Below, piece after piece: positions 5,609 to 46,513 of a stretch of DNA of 57,279 nt. Positions within the stretch are counted from its first letter, which is position 1. Each line of letters opens with the position of its first letter. Both the position numbers and the translations under genes were made by a program. The stretch comes from a virus, in the IMG/VR virus record IMGVR_UViG_3300042309_002674, positions 1 through 57,279 of that record, one strand, 5' to 3'. Below the pieces are notes generated by a model that searched no databases, was not told the origin of the DNA, and saw only the letters and a list, made by a program, of their open reading frames with translations.

Positions 5609-8134
5609 TTATTCGTAGTAACCAAAAAGTACGATATTAATATCAGATATGCCAGATAAAGGATTATATATATCTATACCTATTCTATTATTCCAAGGGG
5701 CATTGAAACCAATATTAAAAGACTCATTGTATAACTGCCCAGTTTTTAATCCAAACTTTGGACCTATTACTTTATTACCATTTTTATCCTTGTGATAAAA
5801 GTTTCCAGTAAATGATCCTGAATATGGAGTATTTCTATAACCTATAATCCCAGTCATTATTCCAGTTCCATATTCTTTTGTTACAAAATTTACATTTCTC
5901 CAACCCACGTATCCAGTTATAATTCCAGATCCTGAGTTTATAAATGTATCTCCAATAAAATTATTACCTATATATGGGTATGGTCCAAAACCTGTGTATA
6001 AAAACCCTAAGTTATTGTTAAATCCTGAAAATCCAGTAAACCCAGAAAACATACTTCCGGTTGGAAAAAAGCTTTTTTGATTTCCTGTTATAAAACCACT
6101 AGAGCCTGTAATTTGATTAAATTCGTAAAATTCACCAAATACGTTTTTAAATCCACTGATAAATCCAACAATATATTCTTTTACTACGCCAGTAAATCCA
6201 ATTCCGCTAAATCCACTTGTTGAAGGATAAAACCCGCTATAAGAATATCCATATTTTGTAAACGAAGGGTTATTGTCAAATTTGGGGAATTTATAATACT
6301 TAGGATCAAATGTTCCGCTTGGAAACATATAAGTATTATTATCTATAAAATATCCACTTATTCCCGAAGTATTTTCCGCAAGACCTGACATGATTTGAAA
6401 ATTGTATAAAGCATTTGCTCTCGAAAATCCTGTGATATCTTGCCTTCCGCTAACATTTCTTTTTCCTACACCACCAATCCATTGGCCCGTATAGCCAGCA
6501 CCATCAAAAATAAGGCCGGAAAAAAAGTCTTCATTGATGTCGAAATGCATACCAGTATACTCAAAGCCAAGTCCAATATCTATACCAGGTCTTCCAGAAA
6601 ATCCCGAAAATGGTATAAATATATTTGCTCCACCAATAATTCCAGTCATTATTCCGTCTGTATTATTTGTGGCACCATTTAATCCGGAAAATCCACTACC
6701 TAATGGAAATGAAAATCCGGTATAGTAAGATGAATAACCGCTACCGGTATAAATACCATACATTTTATCAAAGCCGGTATATCCCATTGTTGGAAAAAAT
6801 ATTTTAATATAATCTGATAGAGTATTTATAAAATAACCGCTAGAATTTCCTATTGAAAATTGGTTAGAACCATTCATGAATCCGCTCACAAAACCTATTA
6901 TAGGGTAATAAATAGGGCGATCTGCTGGGAAAAAATATTTTTCTCCATTAATAAAATATCCACTTGATCCAACCACGAAACCACTTAAATCTAGCCTGAA
7001 TATTCCAGTATCTATTCCTCTATATGGATCGTAATCATCATGATAAAATACCCCAGAGCCAGAAACTCCGGTCGTAATTCTCGATAATCTTACAAAGCCG
7101 CCATATTGATTTAAATATCCACTCAAAAATCCAGAAACTTTTTCTGGGAATGCTCCACTTCTCCACCCTATGTTTTGCAATATCTCTCCGGAACCAAAAT
7201 TTATATTGTTGTAGCCACTGTATATGCCCACAGAAAATATACCATTTGATGATATTTGAAATCCGGTATATTGAAATCCGGAAATAGAAGAAAAACCAGG
7301 CTGCCCAGAAAATCCAGAAAATATTGCTGTTGCTGGAAAATTGATTTTGTTATTATTTAAAATATAACCACTCCAGTTACTTATATCAATTTGATTTTCG
7401 CATGGATTACATGGTGTTTTTAGAATTGAAAGTGACTGTGCATAAATAGGCACAGGACTTACAAACCCACTTATATATCCGGTTACTTGTTCGGCAAACG
7501 TTAATTGACCAATTCCAGTATTACTGCAATAAACGCCGAAGCCGCTAAAAACAGAATCCCATTGGTTGTATTCTTCGTGTATATTTTCTGAAAAAATTGG
7601 TATATTTTTTGCGTAAAAGTTTATCTGTTTTGGCATCCGATCAAAATGTGCCGCTGCTGGAAAATACCCTAATAAGTGAACAGACAATGAGCGCATGTCT
7701 TCCGGAGCATTGTAAATATTTAAACCTATTATACTGTTTTTTTCAACCTTGTAATTGATTTCGGTGTGCTGTATTATTTGTTCTGGGGCCAATTCAAAAT
7801 TAGCAAATACAGTGGTATTAATTGATGAAGATGCTGGTCTTTGATAAAATCCTCCAAAAAAATTCTCTGTTCCTGTGGTGGGGTGACTGCACGTTACAAG
7901 AAGCCCCGTGGCCATAAAAAAATCATTTAAATATGTTTCATTTAAATATTGTCCCTCTTGTGGCCATTGCGAATAAAATGAAATCGGCGCATATCCTTTT
8001 ATGAAAAATCGATCTGATAATTGAATACCAGAACTATTTTTTATAAGATTATTGTTGATATATAGACTGCCATTTGAAGCAGTTAGCATATCACCATTGA
8101 GGTTAATATTTTCTATTGAAAAAACGCTTGCCAT
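5609..8134 (-). CDS. Repeat-rich tail fibre flanked by a duplicated beta domain
   Basis: 841 residues. Residues ~63-158 and ~773-841 are two copies of one domain: G-x-FY-x-(R/K) early, then (I/V)IG-x-(D/N)IYN...L...LFGYY. The same domain occurs twice more in the plus-strand gene at 22885. Between the copies lies ~600 residues of SGF-type cassettes such as GFSGQPGFSSISGFQYTGF and GFISGF...SGYFI...FP. There is a Cys pair (CNPCEN) near residue 243 and a further single Cys. No membrane segment. The architecture suits a homotrimeric or beta-solenoid fibre (inference). The start ATG lies just behind the stop of the upstream gene. Confidence 0.7.
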   Translation of the reverse strand: MASVFSIENINLNGDMLTASNGSLYINNNLIKNSSGIQLSDRFFIKGYAPISFYSQWPQEGQYLNETYLNDFFMATGLLVTCSHPTTGTENFFGGFYQRPASSSINTTVFANFELAPEQIIQHTEINYKVEKNSIIGLNIYNAPEDMRSLSVHLLGYFPAAAHFDRMPKQINFYAKNIPIFSENIHEEYNQWDSVFSGFGVYCSNTGIGQLTFAEQVTGYISGFVSPVPIYAQSLSILKTPCNPCENQIDISNWSGYILNNNKINFPATAIFSGFSGQPGFSSISGFQYTGFQISSNGIFSVGIYSGYNNINFGSGEILQNIGWRSGAFPEKVSGFLSGYLNQYGGFVRLSRITTGVSGSGVFYHDDYDPYRGIDTGIFRLDLSGFVVGSSGYFINGEKYFFPADRPIYYPIIGFVSGFMNGSNQFSIGNSSGYFINTLSDYIKIFFPTMGYTGFDKMYGIYTGSGYSSYYTGFSFPLGSGFSGLNGATNNTDGIMTGIIGGANIFIPFSGFSGRPGIDIGLGFEYTGMHFDINEDFFSGLIFDGAGYTGQWIGGVGKRNVSGRQDITGFSRANALYNFQIMSGLAENTSGISGYFIDNNTYMFPSGTFDPKYYKFPKFDNNPSFTKYGYSYSGFYPSTSGFSGIGFTGVVKEYIVGFISGFKNVFGEFYEFNQITGSSGFITGNQKSFFPTGSMFSGFTGFSGFNNNLGFLYTGFGPYPYIGNNFIGDTFINSGSGIITGYVGWRNVNFVTKEYGTGIMTGIIGYRNTPYSGSFTGNFYHKDKNGNKVIGPKFGLKTGQLYNESFNIGFNAPWNNRIGIDIYNPLSGISDINIVLFGYYE

Positions 8135-13483: not shown

Positions 13484-14335
13484 ATGTCACACCCCAAAAG
13501 AAGTAAAAAGGTACATATTGAGGATAAAAGTCCAAAAATATATCAAAGGGATAAGATAGATTTTGAATTAAAAGTCAGGGAATTAGATTGGACTGATAAG
13601 CAAAAAGAATTTTTTAGCTTGGTCAATGATAAGGATACTAGAATTGTTTTTGTGAGCGGTCCCGCTGGCTCTTCTAAAACTCTAGTTGCTGTTCGGGCGG
13701 CGTTGCAAATGCTAAATGATAAAAAAGCATCAGATATTATATGTGTTAGGGCTGCTGTAGAAAGTGCAGATTCAAAGCTTGGATATTTACCTGGCGATCT
13801 GCAATCTAAATATGATGTCTATATGATGCCATTTGCTGACAAACTAGAAGAGCTTTTGCCGATTGATCATGTCAAAAGATTAAAAACAGATAATAGAATT
13901 ACCAATCAGCCTATTAACTTTTGTCGTGGGCTGAGTTTTGTAGCAAGAGTAGTACTTATGGACGAAATGCAAAATGCCACACTATCAGAGTTTGCTACTT
14001 TACTTACAAGAATTGGAAAATTTACAAAAATGATTATATGCGCAGATTCATCGCAGTCAGATCTTCCATTTAATAAGCAGGGCGCTTTTGATAAAATTGT
14101 TGAATTATTCTCATGCGAAGAATCAAAAAAGATGGGCATTCATCATTTTCAATTTACAGAGGATGATATTTTAAGATCTGAGCTTTGCAAATTTGTGGTT
14201 AAAAAAATAACAGAACGCAAAAAAGAAGATGCGATTAAATTAGCTGAAAAAGAAAAAGAAAAGAAAAATAAGCCTCATAGCACAAATATTTCTCAAGTTT
14301 ATCAAGATAGCTGGTGCCCAAGTCAAAAATTATAA
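13484..14335 (+). CDS. phoH: PhoH-like P-loop ATPase
   Basis: 283 residues. It carries the Walker A loop GPAGSSKT (residues 59-66) and Walker B VVLMDEMQN (about 156-164, acidic pair D160-E161), followed by the conserved CADSSQSD segment. This is the PhoH family, which is common in environmental phages. The family relates to the N-terminal half of UvrD/RecA-type helicases and is thought to act on RNA or nucleotides; its role in phages is unsettled. The C-terminal ~40 residues are highly charged (Glu/Lys-rich), a phage-specific tail. The first gene of the rightward cluster, followed by the zinc-ribbon and sigma-like genes. Confidence 0.9.
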   Translation: MSHPKRSKKVHIEDKSPKIYQRDKIDFELKVRELDWTDKQKEFFSLVNDKDTRIVFVSGPAGSSKTLVAVRAALQMLNDKKASDIICVRAAVESADSKLGYLPGDLQSKYDVYMMPFADKLEELLPIDHVKRLKTDNRITNQPINFCRGLSFVARVVLMDEMQNATLSEFATLLTRIGKFTKMIICADSSQSDLPFNKQGAFDKIVELFSCEESKKMGIHHFQFTEDDILRSELCKFVVKKITERKKEDAIKLAEKEKEKKNKPHSTNISQVYQDSWCPSQKL

Positions 14336-15562: not shown

Positions 15563-16675
15563 ATGGCTGAGCATGGACAATTTGAACTTTCTGAAATTCA
15601 AAAAGAAAAAATAGAAGAGTTGTTTTCTGGAAATAACGAGCCAGAGCTTTCTTTTATTGCCAAAACTGTTTTTGAAAATGAATCGCTTGACGGCAAAACA
15701 AAAGAAGCCAGAGCAATAAAAGCATTTTGTAATGATAGAGGTCTAAAATTTAAAACAAGAACGATTGTGCTGAAAGGGCTTATTGAATTAAAAGATGATC
15801 AAATAACTTACATTAATAATAATTTTAGAGTTAAATCCGCTCTTGAAATTGCAAAAGAGCTTTTCAACAATGATGAATTAACAAATTTAAGCCAAGAATA
15901 TAGAACTGTTAATACAAAAATTGAAGAAATAAAAGAGGTTATTAAAAAAGAAAATATTCCACAGCAAAAAAATGAACTGGAAATTATTTCTATAAACTAT
16001 AACCCTGAAGAGTTGATAGATTCAGAATATAAACCGCCAAAAACTTTAAAGCAAACGATTGAGCGCGTTAATCATTACTTAAATTATGGATACAATGAAG
16101 AAACTTTAAAAAAGCAACAGCTTTTTGAAATGCAGCAGCTTAAAAAGTACTTAAATATATTCAGATTTATATACCAAATTAATACCTATAAAATACAAGG
16201 GGATAGAGATTTATTTGAAGATGCGTTTATTAGATATACGCACGATAAGCCAGATTTAACACAAGAAGATTTGGATCAGTTTATTACGCTTTGCAATCAA
16301 ATTGTACGAGCAGCGGAAATTCAAAGAAGAATTGAGTCGCTTAGAGCCACAATGGCTGCTGGTGAAATTTCAATGAAAATGAATGAGGCAATTAATGTGC
16401 TTCAAACAGAGCTTAATTCATGTGAAAATATAAAAACAAAATTGTATAACGATTTAACAACAAAACGAAATAAGCGTCTGGAAGAAAAAACAGATGGATT
16501 CGAAAAGCTTATTAACCTAGTTCAGGCATGGAAAGATGAAGAGTTTAGAAAGAAAACAATACACCTTGCAGAGCTTGAAAAAATGAAAGTTAAAGAAGAA
16601 GCTGGCCGTATTAATTCAATGAGCGAAATTAAGGCGCTTCTTCGTGGGGCAACATTAGAAGAATTAGTTGGATAA
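15563..16675 (+). CDS. Coiled-coil protein at the small-terminase position
   Basis: 370 residues, family not recognised. The N-terminal ~110 residues contain two helical, HTH-like repeats (around ELSFIAKTVFENESL and SALEIAKELFNNDELTN), and the rest is mostly charged helix with coiled-coil character, for example about residues 245-330. It lies upstream of the nuclease and large terminase genes with TAATATG junctions on both sides. DNA-binding N-terminus plus oligomerising coiled coil is what a small terminase subunit needs, but 370 residues is about twice the usual size, so the call is only positional. It could instead be a nuclease partner or a regulator. Confidence 0.45.
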   Translation: MAEHGQFELSEIQKEKIEELFSGNNEPELSFIAKTVFENESLDGKTKEARAIKAFCNDRGLKFKTRTIVLKGLIELKDDQITYINNNFRVKSALEIAKELFNNDELTNLSQEYRTVNTKIEEIKEVIKKENIPQQKNELEIISINYNPEELIDSEYKPPKTLKQTIERVNHYLNYGYNEETLKKQQLFEMQQLKKYLNIFRFIYQINTYKIQGDRDLFEDAFIRYTHDKPDLTQEDLDQFITLCNQIVRAAEIQRRIESLRATMAAGEISMKMNEAINVLQTELNSCENIKTKLYNDLTTKRNKRLEEKTDGFEKLINLVQAWKDEEFRKKTIHLAELEKMKVKEEAGRINSMSEIKALLRGATLEELVG

Positions 16676-16676
16676 T

Positions 16677-17597
16677 ATGGATATTAAATGTACTTTTTGC
16701 ACTAAACAGTTTAGCGGCGTAATTGAGCTTTCTAAGCATCTAAAAGAGCATAAAATTTCTCAAAAAAAATATTTTGAACAATTTTATCCAAGACATGACT
16801 TATTGAATAAAAATAAGATACATTTTAAATCTGTAGAGCAATATTTTCTTTCTGATTTCGAAGATAAGATTTCTATGAAGTCTTGGCTTAATAAAGCTGG
16901 GCATGAAAAAGCACTGGATTACGTGTCTGGGAAAATAAAAAAATATTGTGAGATTAAAAATTTAAAAAATGCGCCTCCAGAATTTTTTATACAAACAGTT
17001 AGTTGTTTACCATCCATTAGATTTATTGAAAAATTATGCGGAGCAAACTACAATGAGATTGCAAATAAAAGCGGAAAAATTTCTCAATATGATTATTTGG
17101 ATTTAGAAAGCAGGGCAACAAATTGCAAGCCAGCAAAGCAAATAGTTATTGATACTAGAGAGAAGCGCCCTCTAAAGTTTGCTAAAGATTTAAGGAAAAT
17201 TAATGTTGCTCTTGATTATGGTGATTATGCACTTTCACCAGCTTCAAGAATTGTCATTGAAAGAAAAAGTTTTAGTGATTTTTTTGGAACTTTTGGTGCT
17301 AATTTAGAAAGGTTCGAAAAGGAGCTATTAAGGGCGCAAAACAATAATGGTTATATAATCATAATGGTTGAAGCTTCTTACAGTTCGTTAGCATATAATA
17401 AAAAACGATGGTTTGCGACCAGCCCAGAATATATATTTCATAGAGTTAGAGATTTGTATAAAAAATATGAATGTTTTCAAATTGTATTTTGTGATGGCCG
17501 AAAGCAAATGACAGATTTGGTATTAAAAATATTGGGGCTTGGCGAAGAGGTTAAAAAAATAGATTTGCAATACTGCATTGAAAAAGAAATAATATAA
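16677..17597 (+). CDS. C2H2 zinc-finger / ERCC4-type nuclease
   Basis: 306 residues from the ATG at 16677, one base after the upstream stop; the TTG at 16668 would overlap it. Residues 5-25 form a C2H2 finger (C5, C8, H21, H25). Residues ~155-290 are an ERCC4-type nuclease: VIDTREKRP (D159, R161, E162), DYGDYAL with D183, and IVIERKS (E195-R-K197), followed by DFFGTFG and the (F)EKELLRAQ helix. These match the XPF/Mus81 active-site pattern of acidic residues and ERK. Such enzymes cut branched or flap DNA. Placed directly before the large terminase, it may resolve branches in replicating concatemers before packaging (inference). Confidence 0.8.
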   Translation: MDIKCTFCTKQFSGVIELSKHLKEHKISQKKYFEQFYPRHDLLNKNKIHFKSVEQYFLSDFEDKISMKSWLNKAGHEKALDYVSGKIKKYCEIKNLKNAPPEFFIQTVSCLPSIRFIEKLCGANYNEIANKSGKISQYDYLDLESRATNCKPAKQIVIDTREKRPLKFAKDLRKINVALDYGDYALSPASRIVIERKSFSDFFGTFGANLERFEKELLRAQNNNGYIIIMVEASYSSLAYNKKRWFATSPEYIFHRVRDLYKKYECFQIVFCDGRKQMTDLVLKILGLGEEVKKIDLQYCIEKEII

Positions 17598-34102: not shown

Positions 34103-34894
34103 ATGAGCGAGCAAAGCGAAAATAATAATGGCGAGATTTTAGAACAAAACAAAGCAGCTTCAGATGCTGAGAAAGGCCCAGAGCAGGCTGAAGTCGTAAC
34201 TGAAGATTCTAAAAATAAAAACGATGTTGAGTTTGATAATAAAAAATGGCTATATGCATTTTATGGGAAAATTAATGGAGAGAATAAAAAGTTTTTCATA
34301 TTAAAACCAGGGCGTAGGTTAAGACAAGGCGGAGAGCTTGAATACGCAAAGCAGTTGGCGAAATTTGTTAAAGCGGGCTTATTGCCAAAGGCCGCTTGGG
34401 GAACTATATTGGATAATGCTGGGGGTACAATCTCGGAAACGGAAGCGGAATCTTATACTTCTGCAAAAAATAGGTTTTTTGAGTTAAGCTTGCGGCTGGG
34501 CTCATTACAACAGCAAGAAAAAAGCGAAGAAAATACAAGCGAAATCGAGCAGATAATGTTTGAAATTGAATCTGTTAAAAATCAAATTCAGGCATTTGAA
34601 CTTGAACAAATCTATATTTTTGAAAATACGGCAGAAGCAAAAGCTAGAAATTCTACAATCGAATGGTGGTTATGCAACCTTTCGTACGATGAAAATCAAG
34701 AGCCATTTTTTAAAGGGCAAGGTGTTGAAGAAAAGCTTGATTGGTATGATTCGTTAGATTCAAAAAACGATAGTGATGCTGATCTGCTAAAAATTGGCCA
34801 AAGATTTAGTTATTTAATAACGCTTTGGTTCTTGAATAGAATTGGGACACCAGATCAGTTTAAAGATGCAGATATCGCTAATGTTAAAAAATAA
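34103..34894 (+). CDS. Tail-assembly chaperone candidate (upstream ORF)
   Basis: 263 residues. The N-terminal ~45 residues are acidic and disordered-looking, then KKWLYAFYGKINGENKKFFILKP begins a folded part, followed by coiled-coil helices (residues ~130-180) and a C-terminal WFLNRIGTPDQF. Two ORFs between tail tube and tape measure are the hallmark of the tail-chaperone pair (lambda G/GT type). The gene ends in AAA-AAA-TAA, which could allow a -1 slip into the next frame (separate entry). The chaperone call is positional; no motif is diagnostic. Confidence 0.55.
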   Translation: MSEQSENNNGEILEQNKAASDAEKGPEQAEVVTEDSKNKNDVEFDNKKWLYAFYGKINGENKKFFILKPGRRLRQGGELEYAKQLAKFVKAGLLPKAAWGTILDNAGGTISETEAESYTSAKNRFFELSLRLGSLQQQEKSEENTSEIEQIMFEIESVKNQIQAFELEQIYIFENTAEAKARNSTIEWWLCNLSYDENQEPFFKGQGVEEKLDWYDSLDSKNDSDADLLKIGQRFSYLITLWFLNRIGTPDQFKDADIANVKK

Positions 34895-34905: not shown

Positions 34906-35910
34906 ATGGCAAATGATGTCAAAGAGTATATTATAGAAAATATCTTAGAGCATATCTTCTCTGGATATTCTGAATATTCGTTGGAAAACGAATTTGGAAA
35001 GCAAGTTTCAGTTTTTATAAAGCATCCATCTCAATCAGATGCTATCAAAATTTATAATCAATATAATCATTATTTTAATAAATATAAAAACGAAGGCTTA
35101 ATGTCTCAAGAAGAGCAACTGGCCTTTATTTGCGATAATGGATGGTGGTCGAAAGATAAAGAGAGCGAAATTTTATATGCCTCTGATTCTATAAAAAGAT
35201 TAGAACAAACAAAAAGAAAAATAATTTATGAATCTGACAGGAAAAGGATTGCCGATCAAATATCTGATTTAAAAAATAAACTCTTATTACTTGAAAGACA
35301 AAAATCAGAATATATTTCATCTACAGCGGAAGATTTAGCATCGCAAGAATCTTCTAGTTTCTTTGTGGAGAATTTTATTTTTATAGATAAAGATTTTAAA
35401 GAAAAGATAAATATATCTGATAATGACAATATTTTCAATAGCTGTTTGTTAATATATTATACATATTTAAATGATTTTTCTGCCTTGAATGTTAAAAAAG
35501 CAGCCCTTTCTTTAAATTTTCAAAATATGCTATACACATCTTCTGGGTCGTGTATGGATGTTTTTGGTGTTCCCGTAATTAAACTGACAAAATATCAAAC
35601 AGATTTGCTAATGTGGGGAAATTATTATCAAAAACTTGTTAAAAATTGCACAAAGGAAGTTCCTGAAGAATTGTACAAAGATCCAGATAAGTTTATAGAA
35701 TGGTATGAGTCGGTTAACAATATTGAAATAAATAAAAAAAATACCAAAAAAAGGAGAGATAAAAAAAGTAAATACGGCTCAGAATCCAAATTTTTATTTG
35801 GCGAAAGAGAAGAGGTTAAAAAAATAGGTGGGGAAATATCTGGCGATAAAATATTAAAAGAAGCAGAGAAGTCTGGCGGTTTTGGTATATACGATTTAAT
35901 GGAAAAATAG
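34906..35910 (+). CDS. Tail-assembly chaperone candidate (downstream ORF)
   Basis: 334 residues from the ATG at 34906, 11 bases after the upstream stop and in the -1 frame relative to it. Predicted mostly helical, with a coiled coil around residues 92-135 (RLEQTKRKI and ISDLKNKLLLLERQK). The C-terminus is Lys/Arg-rich (KKNTKKRRDKKSKYG) and ends with EAEKSGGFGIYDLMEK. If the -1 slip operates, this would be the extension of a fusion; otherwise it is a separate protein made by reinitiation. Role inferred from position before the tape measure. Ends with TAG. Confidence 0.5.
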   Translation: MANDVKEYIIENILEHIFSGYSEYSLENEFGKQVSVFIKHPSQSDAIKIYNQYNHYFNKYKNEGLMSQEEQLAFICDNGWWSKDKESEILYASDSIKRLEQTKRKIIYESDRKRIADQISDLKNKLLLLERQKSEYISSTAEDLASQESSSFFVENFIFIDKDFKEKINISDNDNIFNSCLLIYYTYLNDFSALNVKKAALSLNFQNMLYTSSGSCMDVFGVPVIKLTKYQTDLLMWGNYYQKLVKNCTKEVPEELYKDPDKFIEWYESVNNIEINKKNTKKRRDKKSKYGSESKFLFGEREEVKKIGGEISGDKILKEAEKSGGFGIYDLMEK

Positions 35911-35968: not shown

Positions 35969-38900
35969 ATGGCTAGACCATCAATTCCAGTAGATGTAAT
36001 AGGTAATACAGCGCAGCTTAGAAGGCAAATAGAAGAGCTTTCTAAAACGCCTGTAGTTTTAAATATTCAAGGCGCTGGCGGCAGAGGCGCCAGAGGTTTA
36101 GAGAGACAATCTTCAGCTATATCTGATATAGGCACTGGGTTAGCTGCTGGTGGAGCAGCCGCCAGATCTTTCAATCAGCCCCTTGGAAAAATAAATGGAA
36201 ATGTATCTGAAATTGATAAATCTTTAGGTGCTGCCAATGCTCGCGTTATTGCTTTCGGAGCGGCTGCTGGTGGTATTTTCGCACTTCAAAATGCTGTGGG
36301 TCAATTATTTACTTCATTTGTAAATACAGAAAAAAAACTTGCAGAAATAAATACAGTTTTTAATCTTGATCAGGGAGGACTTAAATCTTTTGGAAAGCAA
36401 ATATTTAAAACCGCAGGGCAAACTGGGCAGTCGTTTGATACGGCAAGCGAAGCAGCGTTAGAATTTTCTAGACAAGGTCTTGGTGTTGAAGAGACAACAA
36501 AAAGAACAAGAGACGCACTTGTGTTGTCAAGGCTTAGTGGTCTTGATGCCGCTTCAAGCGTTAATGCGCTAACCGCTTCTGTAAACTCATACAGAAAAGA
36601 GGGAATTACAACCGGGCAAGTTGTTAATAAATTAGCAAATGTTGATGCTGGCTTTGCGGTAAGTTCTGCTGATTTGGCTGAAGCATTAAGTCGTGTTGGC
36701 TCTAGCGCCCAAGACGCTGGGGTGTCATTTGATGAATTAATTGCTCTTGTAACATCTGCACAACAAACAACTGCCCGTGGCGGTGCTGTAATTGGTAACT
36801 CATTAAAAACAATATTTACAAGATTAAATAGAGAGAAAACAACAGAACTCTTTGAAGGCTTGGGTATTTCTACATTAGACGAACAGGGAAATGAAAAAAA
36901 TCAAATTGGCCTATTGAAAGATCTTGCTGGTGTTTATGGCACGCTTGGAACACAGCAAAAAAACTATGTAGCTGAGCAGGTTGGTGGGGTGTTTCAATTA
37001 AACATATTAAAAGCTGCCTTATCTGACTTGGGTAGACAGTATTCTGTATATGATAGGGCATTACAAACATCTCTTGGGTCAACAAATCAGGCAGACAAAA
37101 GAAATGAACAATTAAATCAAACGTTGTCAGGTCTAGGCACTCAAACGCTTGCAAATGTTCAAAGCGCTGCTTCCACTATTGGCGGCGAACTGTTTGCTCC
37201 TGCAGCAAAAAATGTTTTAAATATCGGCAATTTTCTTGCTCAAGGAGTTAATGAATCTGAGAGTTCAAGTGTTGGTACGAAACTAGGTCAAGGTATAATT
37301 AGTGGACTAGGTTCTTTTTTAGGTGGACCAGGGTTGGCATTGATTGGTGCTGTTTTAGCAAAACTTTTTGGTGATTTTTCAAAATATGGAGCAAGTGCTG
37401 GCAAGAGCTTGTTGGGGCTAGATCAAGCAGCAAAAAATCAAGCAACAATCCAACAAAGCGTTGCTGGTTATTTACAAAAAAATGCAAGTCTTTATAGTGC
37501 AATAGCTAGCGGACAAACTTCAGTAACTTCGGCCGCAAAACAATATTTACAAGTTATAAATCAGCAGAGCGCAGCACTGCAAGCTCAAGCAGCTATAGCT
37601 AAACAAGTAGCAGCAGCTGTTACGGCAAATGTTGGTAGATCTGCAACAACCCCAGTAGTTGTGCCATCAACTGCGTCAGGAAAAAAAACAAGATTTTCTG
37701 GATTTATACCAAATTTTGGAACAAGAGATTATTATCAAGAAGTTGAAAATGCAGGCGCATCAAATCATAAGAATGGTTATAGGGCCGGTATATTGAAAGG
37801 AGTAACTGTTCATGACGGCATGGGTAATAAAGAGCGCGCTTGGATGACATCTAGAGAATCAAAAAAAACATTTACAAATGCTTCTGGTTTTAAAGCTACG
37901 CAAATAACGCCACCTAATGGTTTTAGTTCAGATACTATGATGGCAAGCTCTGGGTTTGTTCCAAATTTTGGAGCATTTAGAGGGCCAGTAACCAAAGAAG
38001 AAATTGAAATCGCCAAAAAACAAATGGCAGAATCTGGTCGCGCCGGATACTTAAAAAGAGTGGGCGCTGAACTTACAGATCAACAAATAGCAAAAGAGTT
38101 GAGAAATAGCACTTTACCAATGGATCCTGTTGGTAGGGGTAAAGCTTTAAATGACAAAATACAATCTTTAACTGAAGGTGCGGCTACCCGATTCAATAAG
38201 CAAGTTGCAATTATAAATCAAAGACGGCAATCTATTGGATTAGCTCCATTAACAGAATCTAGAATTGCGCAGCTAGAAAGTGCCGGAGCAAAGCAGCCGA
38301 CACAAAATGAGTGGAATGAGCTTTTTAAAAATCAATATAGAAAAATTAGTTCCGCGGAATATGACGCAGCTATAGCTAAAGATGCAAAATTAAGAGGTGA
38401 ATCTGGTTTTAGAAAGGGCGGTTATATAGCTAGACCAGATACTCCTGAAAATCAAGTAATTAATCTTGGTGATTTATCATCTAAACCAGGAGGGATTTCT
38501 TTAGTTCACTCAATGGAAAGGGGGCCACAAGCAATCACGGCGCAAACCCCAATAGACACAAAGAAGGGCGGGTCAGGAAAGGCTTATAGAGCTAGCGTAT
38601 TAACTTCTGGCATAGATACATCAGTTATAAAGGGGGCTCTGCCAAACACAAAGCAAAGAATGGAGGAAGCTGTAACTCAACTTGCAAATGATTTTGGTCG
38701 ATCTCTTGGCTTAAAAAATACATTAACAGTTGCAGATATTCCAAATGCTGGATCTGTAGCGAGCGCCGCTGGTGTTGCTTTTGAGCAGGCCCTAACAGGG
38801 TTTGTAAAAAGAAGCACAAGGAGAGCAGAAAATGCAAGGGTTGATTTTGCTGATCCTACTAATTTAAGAAAATTTTTCTATAATATACCAGGCATGTATG

Positions 38901-41900
38901 AAGCAAAACAAAATCCTGGTCCTAAAAACGTTCAAGATGTTATAAAAAAATATGTTGATACAAACAAAGAATTTCAGTCAGAGGCGGCAAGGGTAAAAAA
39001 ACCAAATATTGCTCCTTTTCGTGCTGGAAAATGGACGCCTAGTCCAGAAGAGCAAAAAAAACTTGAAGCTCTAAAATCACAACCCAAAACAAATAATCCA
39101 TATTTGCAAGCTTATTCTGGATTTATTCCGAATTTTGGCCCAAACATAGCCGCTATACAAAAGCTAATGACTCAAGGAGCAACGTCTGGTGAGAGACAGG
39201 CAGCTTTTGCTGCTATGCAAAGAATTCAATCAAATGCATTATCTAAGCTTGGAACTGGAGATAAATTAACAAAATTTAGAGAACTTTTGTATGGATCAAA
39301 ATCTAATGCCGGTTTTAATCTTGATGCTATAAAAATAAAAGATTTAAAGTATAAGCCTCTCCTTGCTGGTGCAAAAGAACTGGGTTTAAGCATGAAAGAT
39401 TTAGAATTGCTTGCTGGCAATCCAATTGCTATAAATCAGCTTAGAGGTTTAAGCGGTAAAACTAAATCTTCCTCATTTGCAAAAGGATTTTTACCATCTG
39501 GGTCTGGACAAAAATTAAATCCATTACTTGGAAGAAATAAATTTCAAGCAAATTGGATAAAAGAATTTGCTAAAAAAAATAATATTGATTTAAAAAATCC
39601 AGATGCAATGTTCAAAATTGCTTCTGCTTTTGCTAAAAAATATCCAAATGAACAGTCTATGTTTGGTTTTAATTCAGGCTTTATTCCCAATTTTGCTTCT
39701 GAATTTAAAACTGCACAAAAAAGAGCGGTAGGTGCTGAAAAATTATTTGGTAAGGGTGCTGTTATGGACGAATATAAAGGAATGAGCTACGTTCGTCAAC
39801 CTGGCCAATCATCTAATTTTAAAACAATGATGAAGCAGGATCATCCTGAGGGCTTTAAAGCTGCTGTGCAAAATTCAGCTGTTTCTCAAGGACTATCTCG
39901 CGGTTTTATACCTAATTTTGCGCCGAATGAAGAAGAATATGGCGGAGGATTAACGGCCTCTGCTCTTCAAGGGCTTTTGATGACGCTGGCTTTTACTTTA
40001 CCTCAAAGAGGATCAATGGCAGAGGGCATTGAACAAGAGCGCAGAAAAAATGCAGAGGCATTTATTAAAAAAAGATCAGAAGATCAAAAGTTTGAAGCGC
40101 AAAGAAGGGCTAACCAACAAAGATCAGATGCAGTTAGACAAAAACAATCTATTTTGAGCGAAAGAAGATCTGGAAAAATTACACAAGAAGAAGCTAGAAA
40201 AAAATATAATAACATTAACAAGGTCATAGCAAGCTCTGGTGAGGATTTAAAAAAATCTTTTATAAAGATAGATGAAAATTTACAAAAATCTAATGAAAGA
40301 TTGTCAACGAATCAAAAATATTTATCTAGAATAAATGAAGTTGCATTAAAAAATGCTGGAGCTACTGGTCGAGGCGCAAGCTTATTTGGCAAAGCTGCAT
40401 CTATTATACCTGGCGTTTCTCAAGAAAAGGCAGTTGCTGGGTTTGAGGGGTTAAAACAAAAAGGCAGAGGTATACGTGAATCACAAATATTTAAAGGGCC
40501 TGGCGCAGGGCTTGGCGGCGCAATAGCCGCACCTATATTAGCTGAAACAATAGCGGCGGAACTGGGCAGAGATACTACTGGGGGTCGAGTAGCAAGCGCG
40601 GCAGGCAATGCAGCTTCTTTTGCTTTAACTGGCGCAGCAATCGGTGGACCAAAGGGAGCATTGGTTGGCGGTCTTGTTGGTGGCGGAATGCTACTCAATG
40701 AAATAATAACTGCCAGAGGAAGTACGCTATCTGAAACATCTAAAGAGTCTGAAAAAGCAACTCAAGAAGCTGGAAGAATTAATGATTTAGCAGGTCAGGC
40801 GCTAAGTGATATTGGAGACTATTATGAAGCAGTTGGTTCGCAAGGGCCAGATTCAAAAAAAGCAAAAAAACTTAAAAAACAATTAACATCAACAATATCT
40901 AAATTTGGCCCAGACAGCGCTAAAAAATTATTCGAAGCTTTTTATCAAGGTCCAGAAAAATTTCAAGAAGAAATTGGCAAACAGCAAGACCAAGCAACTA
41001 AAGAACAAAAAACTCGTGAAGCCGGACAAGCATTATCAAAAATTTCAGAAGGTACTAGGGCTAGAAAAAGCTTTGCTGGTATTTTTACATCTCAGCTTCC
41101 AGATTTATTATTCGGTCAAGAAACAAAAGGTGGATTAAAAGGTTATACTTCGGATCTAGAAAAAGAAAATATTTCTGATACTGTTAGGCAGGGCTTGTTT
41201 GGTGGACTCGGCAGTCAAGAAATTCTTGATAGGGTTGAAAAAGATTTTGGCGGGGCAGGTAATTTAATAAAAATATTTACTGACGCTGAAGCAGCAACAA
41301 AAAAATTTGAAAAAAGAGTTAAAGAGCTTGGTGGTACTGGCGGTAGAAGTTTAGAAAAATTTGCTGAATCAATGGAATATGTTTATGGATCAAGCGAAGG
41401 CAAAGAGTTTTTAAGCACAATAGATAAGCAAAAAAAAGCACTACTAGATTTAACCGAAAAAGGTTTTGGCGCTTCACTTTCTGAATCTGGCAGAAAAGCA
41501 TTTTTAGAAAATTTAGATGTAACTGCTCTTAGGCAAGTTGGTGGAGATGTTGCTAAAGACATTGTAGATGCAAGGGGTATAATAAAACAAGAGGAAGATG
41601 TTAGAACTACACGTGGGGAATCAAACCAAATGCGCGTTGCCCAACAGATGGCAAAAGTACAATCTGAAATGCAAGATTATACTGGCCGAGGTGGAGAATC
41701 ATTTGGTGAAATAATTTCATCTTATCAAACAGGGGAGCTTAATAAGCTTGAAAGACAAAGATTGGCAGGCCCAACCCCAGACATAATAAGCTATAATGAA
41801 GAGAGAGAAGCCAAAAGACAAGAAAGAATTCAAAAATCACAAAGAAGATTAGATTTCTTACAGCAATACGGCGTCAAAGGTGGTAAATCCGATATGCAAA

Positions 41901-44900
41901 GTATCATTCAAGAGGCATATGGTGCAAGAATCGCAGAGGCTGAAGATCTTGGAATTGCTAACATGCCGGGGCTTAAACAGTCTATATTTGAAAATATAAG
42001 AAGACAAGTTTATGGTTTTGCTGGCAGAGGAGATGAAACGGCGCAATATGAAGTGGATATGAAAGCTGATGCGAAAAGGCGCCAGCAAGCCATGCCAGAA
42101 TATATTCAAAAAAAATCTCAATTTGAACAACAAATATCAGGATATGGGGCAGAACAGCTTGTTAAAGAGCAAGAGAAAGTAAAGAGCAATTTAGGCATAC
42201 AGCAAGAGCTATTGGGTTTAATGAGATCAGAGGCTGGAATGACTGGAGAGGGCGCTGCCCAAAAAATGATTCAAGGTATTGACAGAGAAATACAAGACAT
42301 GGGTCCTGTTTTTTCTTACGAAAAAGACAGACAAGACCAATTGCAGTCTTTAATTGAAAAAAGAAGTCAGGTTGAGAATTACTTACCTCAGTTAAGGCAA
42401 ACTAGTGATGATTATAATGTTATAAGGGGGCAAGAAGCAGGGTCAGAAATGATGATTCAAAGCATGCAGCAAATGCTTCAATCGCTAAGACAAGGAACGA
42501 AAGAACAGCCATCAGTGCCAGCTGAAGATAAGGATGCGTCAGGTAAGGCCACCAATCAGGCCGCAGCCAATATGGCCACTTCTGCAGATAAAATAGCTAG
42601 CGCAAGCGAAAAAGCTGCAAGCGCAATGTCAGCATTTGCCACAAGCGCAGCGTCTTCAATTGAAAAGTTGACAGCTTTATCTGCAATGCCAACGCCAGCA
42701 TCAAATGCCCCAAATACCTCTGCTATGGGATTTATACCTAATTTTGCAATGCCAAGCAAAAAAAATATAAATCAAACAAAAAATTTAGAATCTTTTGCTT
42801 CTGGAAAAACGGCTACATATCATACAAATCCATTTCCACACGTTAGAAATGCAGGACAGCCAACTTTTGGCTCGGCAATGAGAGATCATGGCGGATTAGA
42901 AAATGCACTCAATGATTCAGCAGAAATGCAGAAAAATTTTGCATCAGGATTTATTCCAAATTTTGCATCGTTTGGGGAGATTAAAGCTAAATTTAGTTCA
43001 AAGCCAGAATATTCTACAGCCTTTGGTAAAATTGATAAAATCAAAGATTTTTTTACAAATTTTAGAGCACCAGAGTTACCAATCCCTAATTTTGCTTATA
43101 ATCCAGAAATGGTTCCGGGCAATACCCCAAGAGCTATGAAAAAAGCCTTTGCAAATGTGCAGGAGGTTATTGCTATTGTATCTCAAAATTTAGGTTTTAA
43201 TGCCGGAAATGTAAATACGCCAACAAGCATGTCTACTGGAAAATACGGGCAAAAAGGGCGAGCGTTTGCTGCAGTAACAACAAGCAGTATGGGAGATAGC
43301 AATGTTTGGTTTTCTGACAGGCTGGGCAGAGGTAACACATTGGGGATTATAGCAAATGAGGCAACTCACGTGAATCAAGGTTTGAATATTTTGTATGATA
43401 GAAATTCATATACTAATAAGTTAAAATCCTTTACTGATTTTCTAGAATCAAAAGGTATGGTTACAGGAGCGCAAAGTGGCGGTGGGTTTAGCGATAATAG
43501 AAGGATTGCTTTTACCACAACTCAAGAAGACAGCATGGCTTCAATACAGAATAAAAAGAAAGAAATACAGGAAAAAGCAGACTTTAGTTTTAAAAAAGAT
43601 ATCTTAAAATCGGAATCTGAAATGTCTCAATTTGCAAAAATTACAACATCATCTTTGTCACAAAAAATTAGAGAACAATCAGAAAAAACATCTTCGACGG
43701 TAAAAAACCAACATGATAAAACATTAAGAGATATAGAGAACAGTTTTAATAAAAATCAATCATTGGCAAATCAAGAAATAGCGAATTTTGATCAAACGGT
43801 ATCTAGAAGACGAGGCGGTATAGGCTCTGAATTTAATCATTCTGGCGATCAGCAGGCGTATGAAACAGAGAGACTTTCATCATTAATGCATGGTTTGGTA
43901 AGTGGAATTCAGGTAGGAAATATAAATGCTCAAGACTTGGTTTCGTCTGGTGCTGCTGCAAATTACGATCAGGCAGTCCAAATAATCGAATCGGTGTCTG
44001 GCGCTGAGCAAATGCTTAGGAATTCAGGTATAAATGCTGCTCGCGGATTTATTCCGAACTTTTCAAATAGAAATTTGGCTGGGGTTTTAGAAAAGTTTCA
44101 AGCAAAAAATGCCAATTACAGATCTGGAATATTAAAAACTGTAACCGCACATGATGGTTTGGGAAACAGTTTTAAAACTTATGCTAATTCAAGAGAAGCA
44201 ATAACAAGAGGAACGAATGACTTGGGATATAAGGCAACTATGATTGAGCCACCAAATGGATTTAATTTTGCAGCAAAAGGTTATATTCCAAACTTTGCAC
44301 CTCGTGGCGGCGTTCGTGTTAAAAATAATTTTCAGCGCCAAATGAAAGAAGCATCAAATACTCGCCAAAAACTTTTGGGTCTAGATGAAACAACACAAAA
44401 AGCTATGGCAGAAGCGGCCGAGCAGAGACGTTCAGAAGCAGCTTATAGAGAACTTGAAAGAAGAAAAAATTCATCAATAGATGATGCAGTCAAATCCGAC
44501 CTAACTTCGGAATGGCAGAGGTTAATTGATTGGGGTAATGATCCTGATTATACTAGTAGACCAGATACGCTAAGATCGTATCTTGAACAAGATAAAGCTG
44601 CGCGCGCTAGATATGACAGGATGCAAGCTGCTATGTCTGGAAAAGAAAAAATAAATGAAAATTTTGAATTGGATACCAGAAACAGAATATCTCAGAGACT
44701 ACAAGAAAATAAAATAGATTTATCTCAACCAGAAAACCTGTCTCCTGATCAGAAATCTCGGGCATTTAAAATAGCAGAAGAGGAATGGGCCAAAAATATA
44801 GGAAGCCCAACGCTTGGTCCTGATAAGAAAATTGTTGGAAACTATCCTTCTGGATTTGAAAGCCCTATAGATAAACAGCAAATTCCTTGGAGTAGTGAAA

Positions 44901-46513
44901 TTGGCCGTCCTATTATTGATCAAGATCGTGATGTTGCCAGAGCGGCTGCTGCAAGCAGGCGTGAACCCAGATATAAAGATCCAGTAACTGGCGAGGTAAA
45001 GGATATACCTGGCGGGCTTCCAAGTCTTGATGGAGAATCTCAATATGGACAATTTATAGAAAGCGTTAAACCTCTTGGGTATAGCTTGCCTACAGATTCG
45101 GGCCCTTCACCAGCATATGAGGTAAAATATGGGGGATGGCAAAGAAATACAGAAGCCGATATAACTAGAAATTATATGGAGCAATATGGATTTGGCAAAG
45201 GTGGTATGGAGGGGTATGCTGCGAAAGTAAATGAAAAAATTAAAGTGCTTGAAGGGCCATCCCCAGCACAGGCACAGGCTCTTAACCTCGCCCAAACAGC
45301 TGTTAACGGTGCTATGGGTGGTTGGGGGGCCTTTGGCGGTGGGCTGGCAGAAACTCCAGAAGGTTTAGAAATAATTAAGAGGTCAAGAGAGTGGGCTTTT
45401 AAAAATGCCGGTGATCCCTCAGCGCAAATACCTTTATCAGATTTATTACCAGATAATTTAAGAGAGTCTATTAGGGGAAACACTCGCAAAAATACGCCAA
45501 ATACTTCATCTGAGTCTAGGCTCTCAAAGCCAATTTCAAATGAGAAAACTTATCCAAATACAAGCCCTGTTTCTCGAAAAGAAACACCAATTGGCAAAAG
45601 TGCTGCCAATGCGCCAAGTACGTTTTCTAATTTTGGTGGTAATAATAATTTGCCATTAACTCAATATACTCAAGCTTCTGCGGCACTTACCGAAGCCAGT
45701 CGCGCCATAAATGAAATGTCAAATTTTCCATCTTTTGGTTCGCAGCCAATGTTGGGATCATCAGCGCCGTTAACAAACTTATCAGATAGTTCTATAAATG
45801 GCATCCAGCAAGGAATGGAAAACGCTATTAAAAATAGTGCCCCTGCAATGTCTAACAGTAGTTTTGGGATGACGCCGCCACCATCATACCAACCGGTCCC
45901 ATATACCACTTCGCCTGGTGGTTCTGCTATTGCTCCAAACCCATCGACAATGGGCGCAGACCCTACACAGCTTGCGCGACAATCAGCGCTTTCATATGCT
46001 AATACTGATAAACCCGTATATGATTTTAATTATACAGCATCTCAAACACCTGCGCCTGTTTCTAATGCTCCTTACGTACAACCACCTTCTCCACAAGCTC
46101 CACCAGCACCACAAGCACCACAAGCACCACAGCAACAAGGCGGAGGCACATCTTTTCAATCTTTAGAACAGGCAATTAAATCAGCAGAGCAAACCATAAA
46201 AGCCTCAGAGCAGACTGTAAAATCTGCAGAGCAAGCCGTAAGAGAATTGGCAAACAAGAATAATAACAAAGACGATGGCGGTAATGGGGGCCAAAATGCT
46301 GATGTAACTTTAGAAGTTAATGTAGATGTTGACCCTCCAGAGGTAAGTATAGATTTAAATGTTGATACTAAAGACTTATCTTCACAGCTTGCATCGTTAC
46401 CAAGTGAAGTTATGGGGGCAATACAGCCAACAATAAATCAAATACAAACAGAATTAACAAGAGTAAAACAAGAGATAGCAATTCTTTTCCAGTCTTTGAG
46501 TAATAACAGGTGA
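35969..46513 (+). CDS. Tail tape measure protein, modular, 3,514 residues
   Basis: Residues ~70-400 match the phage tail tape measure (TP901 type) core: INTVFNLDQGG, FDTASEAALEFSRQGLGVEETTKRT, ANVDAGFAVSSADLAEALSRVG, GNSLKTIFTRLNRE. Hydrophobic stretches lie at ~440-470 and ~1510-1610 (GLGGAIAAPILAETI; IGGPKGALVGGLVGGGMLL). Ten GFIPNF-type motifs occur at residues 577, 661, 1050, 1236, 1311, 2253, 2326, 2372, 2692 and 2770. Two regions look like enzyme domains: PD-(D/E)XK-like at ~935-985 and zincin-like at ~2445-2640. The C-terminus is Pro/Gln/Ala-rich (PQAPPAPQAPQAPQQQ), then a short heptad helix and an acidic beta segment. The length predicts a tail near 0.5 micrometre. Tape measures can be cleaved and partly enter the host. 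Confidence 0.88.
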   Translation: MARPSIPVDVIGNTAQLRRQIEELSKTPVVLNIQGAGGRGARGLERQSSAISDIGTGLAAGGAAARSFNQPLGKINGNVSEIDKSLGAANARVIAFGAAAGGIFALQNAVGQLFTSFVNTEKKLAEINTVFNLDQGGLKSFGKQIFKTAGQTGQSFDTASEAALEFSRQGLGVEETTKRTRDALVLSRLSGLDAASSVNALTASVNSYRKEGITTGQVVNKLANVDAGFAVSSADLAEALSRVGSSAQDAGVSFDELIALVTSAQQTTARGGAVIGNSLKTIFTRLNREKTTELFEGLGISTLDEQGNEKNQIGLLKDLAGVYGTLGTQQKNYVAEQVGGVFQLNILKAALSDLGRQYSVYDRALQTSLGSTNQADKRNEQLNQTLSGLGTQTLANVQSAASTIGGELFAPAAKNVLNIGNFLAQGVNESESSSVGTKLGQGIISGLGSFLGGPGLALIGAVLAKLFGDFSKYGASAGKSLLGLDQAAKNQATIQQSVAGYLQKNASLYSAIASGQTSVTSAAKQYLQVINQQSAALQAQAAIAKQVAAAVTANVGRSATTPVVVPSTASGKKTRFSGFIPNFGTRDYYQEVENAGASNHKNGYRAGILKGVTVHDGMGNKERAWMTSRESKKTFTNASGFKATQITPPNGFSSDTMMASSGFVPNFGAFRGPVTKEEIEIAKKQMAESGRAGYLKRVGAELTDQQIAKELRNSTLPMDPVGRGKALNDKIQSLTEGAATRFNKQVAIINQRRQSIGLAPLTESRIAQLESAGAKQPTQNEWNELFKNQYRKISSAEYDAAIAKDAKLRGESGFRKGGYIARPDTPENQVINLGDLSSKPGGISLVHSMERGPQAITAQTPIDTKKGGSGKAYRASVLTSGIDTSVIKGALPNTKQRMEEAVTQLANDFGRSLGLKNTLTVADIPNAGSVASAAGVAFEQALTGFVKRSTRRAENARVDFADPTNLRKFFYNIPGMYEAKQNPGPKNVQDVIKKYVDTNKEFQSEAARVKKPNIAPFRAGKWTPSPEEQKKLEALKSQPKTNNPYLQAYSGFIPNFGPNIAAIQKLMTQGATSGERQAAFAAMQRIQSNALSKLGTGDKLTKFRELLYGSKSNAGFNLDAIKIKDLKYKPLLAGAKELGLSMKDLELLAGNPIAINQLRGLSGKTKSSSFAKGFLPSGSGQKLNPLLGRNKFQANWIKEFAKKNNIDLKNPDAMFKIASAFAKKYPNEQSMFGFNSGFIPNFASEFKTAQKRAVGAEKLFGKGAVMDEYKGMSYVRQPGQSSNFKTMMKQDHPEGFKAAVQNSAVSQGLSRGFIPNFAPNEEEYGGGLTASALQGLLMTLAFTLPQRGSMAEGIEQERRKNAEAFIKKRSEDQKFEAQRRANQQRSDAVRQKQSILSERRSGKITQEEARKKYNNINKVIASSGEDLKKSFIKIDENLQKSNERLSTNQKYLSRINEVALKNAGATGRGASLFGKAASIIPGVSQEKAVAGFEGLKQKGRGIRESQIFKGPGAGLGGAIAAPILAETIAAELGRDTTGGRVASAAGNAASFALTGAAIGGPKGALVGGLVGGGMLLNEIITARGSTLSETSKESEKATQEAGRINDLAGQALSDIGDYYEAVGSQGPDSKKAKKLKKQLTSTISKFGPDSAKKLFEAFYQGPEKFQEEIGKQQDQATKEQKTREAGQALSKISEGTRARKSFAGIFTSQLPDLLFGQETKGGLKGYTSDLEKENISDTVRQGLFGGLGSQEILDRVEKDFGGAGNLIKIFTDAEAATKKFEKRVKELGGTGGRSLEKFAESMEYVYGSSEGKEFLSTIDKQKKALLDLTEKGFGASLSESGRKAFLENLDVTALRQVGGDVAKDIVDARGIIKQEEDVRTTRGESNQMRVAQQMAKVQSEMQDYTGRGGESFGEIISSYQTGELNKLERQRLAGPTPDIISYNEEREAKRQERIQKSQRRLDFLQQYGVKGGKSDMQSIIQEAYGARIAEAEDLGIANMPGLKQSIFENIRRQVYGFAGRGDETAQYEVDMKADAKRRQQAMPEYIQKKSQFEQQISGYGAEQLVKEQEKVKSNLGIQQELLGLMRSEAGMTGEGAAQKMIQGIDREIQDMGPVFSYEKDRQDQLQSLIEKRSQVENYLPQLRQTSDDYNVIRGQEAGSEMMIQSMQQMLQSLRQGTKEQPSVPAEDKDASGKATNQAAANMATSADKIASASEKAASAMSAFATSAASSIEKLTALSAMPTPASNAPNTSAMGFIPNFAMPSKKNINQTKNLESFASGKTATYHTNPFPHVRNAGQPTFGSAMRDHGGLENALNDSAEMQKNFASGFIPNFASFGEIKAKFSSKPEYSTAFGKIDKIKDFFTNFRAPELPIPNFAYNPEMVPGNTPRAMKKAFANVQEVIAIVSQNLGFNAGNVNTPTSMSTGKYGQKGRAFAAVTTSSMGDSNVWFSDRLGRGNTLGIIANEATHVNQGLNILYDRNSYTNKLKSFTDFLESKGMVTGAQSGGGFSDNRRIAFTTTQEDSMASIQNKKKEIQEKADFSFKKDILKSESEMSQFAKITTSSLSQKIREQSEKTSSTVKNQHDKTLRDIENSFNKNQSLANQEIANFDQTVSRRRGGIGSEFNHSGDQQAYETERLSSLMHGLVSGIQVGNINAQDLVSSGAAANYDQAVQIIESVSGAEQMLRNSGINAARGFIPNFSNRNLAGVLEKFQAKNANYRSGILKTVTAHDGLGNSFKTYANSREAITRGTNDLGYKATMIEPPNGFNFAAKGYIPNFAPRGGVRVKNNFQRQMKEASNTRQKLLGLDETTQKAMAEAAEQRRSEAAYRELERRKNSSIDDAVKSDLTSEWQRLIDWGNDPDYTSRPDTLRSYLEQDKAARARYDRMQAAMSGKEKINENFELDTRNRISQRLQENKIDLSQPENLSPDQKSRAFKIAEEEWAKNIGSPTLGPDKKIVGNYPSGFESPIDKQQIPWSSEIGRPIIDQDRDVARAAAASRREPRYKDPVTGEVKDIPGGLPSLDGESQYGQFIESVKPLGYSLPTDSGPSPAYEVKYGGWQRNTEADITRNYMEQYGFGKGGMEGYAAKVNEKIKVLEGPSPAQAQALNLAQTAVNGAMGGWGAFGGGLAETPEGLEIIKRSREWAFKNAGDPSAQIPLSDLLPDNLRESIRGNTRKNTPNTSSESRLSKPISNEKTYPNTSPVSRKETPIGKSAANAPSTFSNFGGNNNLPLTQYTQASAALTEASRAINEMSNFPSFGSQPMLGSSAPLTNLSDSSINGIQQGMENAIKNSAPAMSNSSFGMTPPPSYQPVPYTTSPGGSAIAPNPSTMGADPTQLARQSALSYANTDKPVYDFNYTASQTPAPVSNAPYVQPPSPQAPPAPQAPQAPQQQGGGTSFQSLEQAIKSAEQTIKASEQTVKSAEQAVRELANKNNNKDDGGNGGQNADVTLEVNVDVDPPEVSIDLNVDTKDLSSQLASLPSEVMGAIQPTINQIQTELTRVKQEIAILFQSLSNNR
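37697..39922 (+). repeat. GFIPNF-motif cluster 1 in tape measure (five copies)
   Basis: Copies start at 37697 (SGFIPNFG), 37949 (SGFVPNFG), 39116 (SGFIPNFG), 39674 (SGFIPNFA) and 39899 (RGFIPNFA). Codons differ between copies, so the peptide rather than the DNA is conserved. The stretch between copies two and three holds the nuclease-like region. Confidence 0.85.
42725..44299 (+). repeat. GFIPNF-motif cluster 2 in tape measure (five copies)
   Basis: Copies start at 42725 (MGFIPNFA), 42944 (SGFIPNFA), 43082 (IPNFA, preceded by LP), 44042 (RGFIPNFS) and 44276 (KGYIPNFA). The long spacer between copies three and four holds the zincin-like region. Confidence 0.85.

Follow-up and report, generated by a model that had tools for sequence, protein, structure and literature searches.

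Tape measure proteins (TMPs) of phages are usually viewed as rulers and channel formers. Phages and conjugative elements also encode polyvalent proteins, large multidomain proteins that combine unrelated enzymes (GNAT, kinase, ADP-ribosyltransferase [ART], zincin and nuclease domains); these proteins are predicted to accompany the DNA into the host and may be processed (Iyer et al. 2017, PMC5512222). Here we analyse a viral DNA stretch of 57,279 nucleotides (positions 1 to 57,279 of IMG/VR record IMGVR_UViG_3300042309_002674, hereafter the window), probably a fragment of a genome, which encodes on the plus strand at 35969-46513 a TMP with repeated copies of the peptide GFIPNFA. We consider it probable that this TMP doubles as a delivery chain for polymorphic effector cassettes, in which GFIPNFA marks the junctions and is recognised there. 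In the sequences analysed, module borders, exchange at these borders, constraint at the level of the peptide and a nuclease signature were demonstrated.

The TMPs described here may resemble polyvalent proteins in that unrelated, predicted enzymatic domains are held in one large protein (PMC5512222). However, polyvalent proteins are packaged in the capsid or transferred by conjugation, and tape measures go unmentioned in the main text of that work (PMC5512222), whereas here a TMP is the carrier, its border peptide recurs and exchange takes place there. Similarly, the MuF polymorphic toxins of temperate phages are virion proteins in which one part is constant and another, the effector, varies (Jamet et al. 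2017, PMC5576092). These toxins are proteins of the head or packaging module of temperate Firmicutes phages (PMC5576092), whereas here several internal cassettes are found in a tail protein of an uncultured lineage, and a Pfam scan detected no MuF domain in the window TMP. The layout also departs from that of polymorphic toxins, in which a constant N-terminal trafficking domain is joined to a single variable C-terminal toxin, as the cassettes are internal and have conserved flanks on both sides. The TMP of mycobacteriophage TM4 likewise contains an enzymatic motif, but it has one peptidoglycan hydrolase acting on the cell wall, without a cassette array, nuclease signature or border peptide (PMC1796659). 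Sle1 and Tme of contractile injection systems are TMP-like delivered effectors as well; they belong to bacterial nanomachines and consist of a coiled coil and a helical C-terminal domain, with no border peptide or cassette exchange described in the accessible part of the source (PMC13277306). In the literature searched, which left most subscription journals outside its coverage, we found neither a description of TMP cassettes combined with a border peptide and exchange at that peptide nor the motif printed in a phage context. By analogy, the system appears to work like polymorphic effectors and polyvalent proteins, but built into a tape measure.

Modules and motif copies of the tape measure protein

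The open reading frame (ORF) at 35969-46513 is a single uninterrupted frame of 3,514 codons, and domain matches identify its product as a TMP of the TP901 / PhageMin_Tail type: PF10145 (PhageMin_Tail) covers residues 147-340 (Pfam, E=2.6e-27), and the N-terminal part has matches below 1e-7 to seven PHROG families of tail length tape measure proteins. When the first 733 residues were compared with TMPs of named phages by tblastn, the best rows had ~25-33% identity, in the N-terminal part only, and residues ~558-2810 had no match across 50,697 phage records. A Pfam scan up to E=10 returned PhageMin_Tail alone and no lysozyme, transglycosylase or peptidase domain.

Nine copies of the strict motif G[FY][IV]PNF are present (at residues 578, 662, 1051, 1237, 1312, 2254, 2327, 2693 and 2771), compared with a mean of 0.0005 copies in shuffled versions of the protein. 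The original prediction had counted ten copies in two clusters; the two clusters are there, but the tenth copy, ELPIPNFA near residue 2373, is degenerate and lacks GF. In a six-frame search, the strict motif was not found in any other frame of the window, and a protease site common to other virion proteins, in the style of a prohead protease, is thus not supported.

The following modules, all on the plus strand, were delimited by motif scan, clustering and alignment. Behind motif copy 1 (GFIPNFG, residues 578-584, 37700-37720) lies a short bracket module, D2 (37721-37972), closed by copy 2 (GFVPNFG, 37952-37972) and modelled by AlphaFold as a small four-strand domain. It is followed by a predicted PD-(D/E)XK-type nuclease module (residues 669-1057, 37973-39139), recognised by its signature and closed by copy 3 (39119-39139), by module D26 (39140-39697, closed by copy 4 at 39677-39697), which has a relative in L023 (L numbers denote fetched loci), and by a second type of short bracket, D3 (39698-39922, closed by copy 5 at 39902-39922). 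The next 942 residues (39923-42748), without a strict motif up to copy 6 (42728-42748), are probably the ruler part. Beyond them are another D3 (42749-42967, closed by copy 7 at 42947-42967), module D73 (42968-44065, closed by copy 8 at 44045-44065) with a zincin-like NEATHVNQ and the degenerate PIPNFA (near 43085), another D2 (44066-44299, closed by copy 9, GYIPNFA, 44279-44299) and a C-terminal region of 737 residues without a strict motif (44300-46513). The two D2 copies are clear paralogues, with an alignment score of 168 compared with at most 44 in shuffles. The bracket order is mirrored, D2...D3 (37721-39922) before the 942-residue region and D3...D2 (42749-44299) after it; in the TMP of L004, too, a second cluster of cassettes lies close to the C-terminus.

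An IMG/VR scan with a DNA pattern of GFIPNFA returned at least 119 stretches. Among the matches listed, ~110 of 119 sit in long ORFs, mostly multicopy TMPs, and where the N-terminus is complete the first copy is usually found at residue 540-650, just behind the TP901-type domain. In the fetched loci, 616 of 626 motif copies lie inside long ORFs, and the 10 others look like chance frames. Directly upstream of the window TMP are two genes on the plus strand, at 34103-34894 (263 residues, a) and 34906-35910 (334 residues, b), with homologues in motif-TMP loci. Neither has a Pfam or PHROG name, and they are therefore named as probable tail assembly chaperones from their position. To avoid selecting on the motif, we also ran a motif-blind scan with alignments of the chaperone-b gene as query; the full alignment being too diverse for a scan, two sub-alignments were used, and 94 loci were found. 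At least two strict copies, most often four, were present in 81 of the 85 TMPs of at least 900 residues in this set, which overlaps the motif sample, as the sub-alignments were built from motif loci. In bacterial and archaeal genomes, a tighter pattern matched 49 loci; the only clear family members were L130 and L152, both contigs of metagenome-assembled genomes (MAGs), and L140 is a possible one. L152 is a 77-kb contig binned with a Flavobacteriales MAG and carries the TMP system, a weak hint at hosts. The lineage to which the window belongs (including L173-L266) is common in IMG/VR, and its capsid protein, like the chaperone-like gene, has no Pfam or PHROG name.

In these relatives the motif marks module borders. 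In all-against-all BLASTP comparisons, 60% of module-zone alignments ended and 54% started within 5 residues of a motif, compared with 7% and 6% in randomly shifted controls. Clustering of the inter-motif segments gave families that reappear in varied orders, the commonest architecture being the N-domain, a ~82-residue D2 bracket, a ~270-residue cargo, a ~73-residue D0 or D3 bracket and the ruler. Alignment ends, the exchange breakpoints described below and the architectures of relatives support the original proposal that the copies bound distinct modules, and do so much more strongly than the window by itself. An AlphaFold model of window residues 575-1057 places its three motif copies between folded domains, in stretches of pLDDT <50. 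A membrane-insertion role, also suggested originally, has no support and is rejected, given the placement of the 7-10 residue motif in predicted disordered linkers and hydrophobic segments that lie mostly outside the module zone. Homology of all the short brackets (D0, D2, D3 and D7) appeared plausible by eye and is not claimed, because the hhalign E-values are weak (0.007 for D2-D7, 0.04 for D0-D3 and chance level for the rest).

Exchange of cassettes at the junction peptide

The 561 copies of 161 related TMPs give the consensus [AK][AS]xG[FY][IV]PN[FY][AS], with G, P and N at ~100%, partly by virtue of the search pattern. Synonymous-codon entropy within the motif was close to that elsewhere in the same genes (1.70 versus 1.78 bits for G, 1.28 versus 1.38 for I, 1.40 versus 1.60 for P and 1.63 versus 1.72 for A). 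Since synonymous sites in the motif vary about as much as elsewhere, it is the peptide and not the DNA that is conserved, as had been concluded from codon variation in the window alone, which argues against a DNA-level element. In one group of seven loci (L219, L223, L224, L229, L231, L235 and L239) the last copy reads HG(I/V)PNF and is one residue shorter, so that the last copy can do without the Phe that follows Gly.

The cargo modules have a history apart from the rest of the protein. Among 33 non-redundant TMPs of standard architecture, Spearman correlations with N-domain identity were 0.90 for the upstream gene, 0.79 and 0.59 for the brackets and 0.85 for the C-region, compared with 0.24 for the cargo. 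L173 and L180, for instance, are 89-95% identical in the upstream gene, N-domain and brackets and 14% identical in the cargo. DNA matches on both flanks but not in the cargo were found for 106 TMP pairs, in which the left homology ended a median of 20 nt into motif 2 (the motif is 21 nt long when Ala is included) and the right homology resumed a median of 0.5 nt before motif 3; these pairs are not independent, and BLAST extension over the conserved motif could explain a few bases, but not the pattern. L177 equals L173 plus exactly one module with its motif, as residues 1-628 match 1-628 and residues 783 onward match 622 onward. The extra module is 76% identical to a module in L004, the N-domains of L177 and L004 being 54% identical. 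Loss is seen in the cargo-free TMPs of L222, L223 and L235, in which a single short module remains and the motif persists as one or two decayed copies. L205, a fourth hit and free of the motif, is a 1,035-residue ORF with its start within the ruler; it probably represents a TMP that is broken or split. In the sequences compared, cargo modules are acquired, dropped and replaced as whole units with their ends at the peptide.

Breakpoints within a few bases of the motif codons could also arise if the motif DNA were a recombination site for cassette exchange and the peptide had no role of its own. We regard this as highly improbable, given that synonymous motif sites are as free to vary as the rest of the genes and that BLAST extension over the conserved peptide also pulls apparent breakpoints to the motif.

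Predicted activities of the cargo modules

The commonest cargo module is a predicted PD-(D/E)XK metal-dependent nuclease. In an alignment of 63 such modules at low identity, only G, E, D and K were invariant outside the motif. A conserved E, D and (D/E)xK occurred in this order in all 63 (E939, D959, E978 and K980 in the window), the position two before the invariant K being D in 44 modules and E in 19. A regular expression of the signature matched 81 of the 94 mid-sized modules of the motif-blind set, compared with 11% of shuffled modules and 6% of N-terminal windows. In AlphaFold models (pLDDT ~90 for the core of the window module and 84.3 for that of L008) the E is located in a helix and (D/E)xK in a strand, followed by a helix. 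The nuclease call rests on the signature, because fold searches found no relative.

Across the family, nuclease-signature modules occur beside modules matching GNAT (PF00583) and the cytidyltransferase-/nucleotidyltransferase-related PF16581, both above Pfam cut-offs. A HATPase match fell just below its cut-off, SNase and AAA matches were weak, P-loop- and GHKL-like domains are also among the resemblances, and kinase-, HAD- and ART-like labels were assigned by eye only. PADLOC returned weak single matches only. The window itself has the nuclease signature and a degenerate zincin-like motif only; intact HEASH and HEAAH are found in modules of L006 and L026. The cargo in L026 (4331-6748; also L041 and L122) is 806 residues long and combines a GHKL/HATPase-like part (Pfam E=5e-5, just below the cut-off) with the HEAAH zincin-like motif.

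Modules inside a structural protein might themselves be structural, tuning tail length, flexibility or tube packing, with acidic and basic residues that bind metal or DNA and no effector delivered. The total module length, which is fairly constant in one clade, and the lack of confirmation of the nuclease fold by Foldseek would fit this explanation. However, catalytic-type residues are the sole invariant ones outside the motif in the 63 modules, the cargo is basic (+4.9 charges per 100 residues), GNAT and PF16581 modules exceed curated cut-offs, and cargo is swapped or lost with the backbone unchanged. A purely structural role therefore seems quite unlikely to us.

Delivery, the junction peptide and significance

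TMPs leave the tail so that DNA can pass. Because of this, and because polyvalent proteins carry similar enzymes into the host, the cargo is probably delivered with the DNA. In the mechanism that we propose, separately folding modules would be carried between the conserved N-terminal domain and the ruler, and in the window also between the ruler and the C-terminus. Most would be metal-dependent nucleases, and others would be acetyltransferase-, nucleotidyltransferase-, kinase-, HAD-, ADP-ribosyltransferase-, P-loop- or GHKL-like. Each junction would consist of a flexible linker with the peptide [A/S]xG[F/Y][I/V]PN[F/Y][A/S], which a trans-acting factor may read. The cargo would enter the host as the TMP exits the tail in front of the DNA, and it may act early; nucleic acids or defences of the host would be its targets, in line with proposals for polyvalent proteins.

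As for the peptide, we tentatively favour proteolytic release of the cargo during or after ejection over docking and a spacer function, giving it close to an even chance. Cleavage fits because a motif copy stands on both sides of every cargo. Processing of TMPs is known in several phages, and even the loss of an internal segment is common (PMC1796659). The idea put forward originally, that modules are released with the DNA as a set of proteins, is a reasonable model, since the modules are exchangeable cassettes and most have the nuclease signature. The full version, a loadable multi-effector TMP whose exchangeable enzymes travel in the tail and are cut free at the junction peptide after ejection into the host, is conceivable but somewhat doubtful. 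That the peptide is a folding spacer is unlikely.

Several observations weigh against delivery and release of active cargo. For delivery, activity and cleavage alike, the evidence consists of metagenomic sequence. No relative of the nuclease module was found by Foldseek (PDB, BFVD) or PDB profile searches, and no Pfam nuclease model matches it. D73 had no Pfam match above cut-off, and its NEATHVNQ lacks the first His of HExxH, the zincin motif. Globular modules of 200-300 residues are bulky for a tail tube of ~4 nm. A protease shared by these TMPs was not found. Cuts at all copies would, in addition, separate the N-domain from the ruler; cleavage would therefore have to follow tail assembly.

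Alternatively, the motif could stay uncut and bind the tail assembly chaperones, the tube wall or a partner in ejection. This would keep the bulky modules threaded in the tail, and they would remain joined and act, if at all, as one chain. Such a docking site fits nearly as well as cleavage, and we consider it a real, if less than probable, possibility. The motif is a short, exposed element that hardly varies, the TMPs have no shared protease that could be found, and both upstream probable chaperone genes accompany the motif throughout (homologues of b in 40 of the 41 motif-TMP loci that extend 1.2 kb or more upstream, and of a in 35 of the 36 that extend 2 kb or more). However, common lineage alone explains this link, copies are found at cargo borders only and not along the ruler, where chaperones should bind too, and copies decay once cargo is lost.

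Elsewhere in the window, two fibre-like ORFs on the minus strand, at 1752-5597 (1,281 residues) and 5609-8134 (841 residues), are rich in SG, SGF and SGFSG repeats, with 48 and 40 SG pairs, respectively. Upstream of the terminase are a PhoH-like ATPase (13484-14335, E=5e-48) and an ERCC4-type nuclease with a C2H2 zinc finger (16668-17597).

In summary, the GFIPNFA motif marks a lineage that is common in metagenomes and has no match among the 50,697 named phage records for its capsid protein, chaperone b or cassette region. In this lineage, enzyme-like modules are found in a protein that would precede the DNA into the cell, and exchange of these modules among phages takes place at fixed junctions, reminiscent of polymorphic toxins. 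If this reading is true, the modules would amount to a mapped repertoire of first-contact phage effectors, with a short peptide by which more can be found, and the fate of the tape measure after ejection, together with that of its fellow travellers, would become a testable question.
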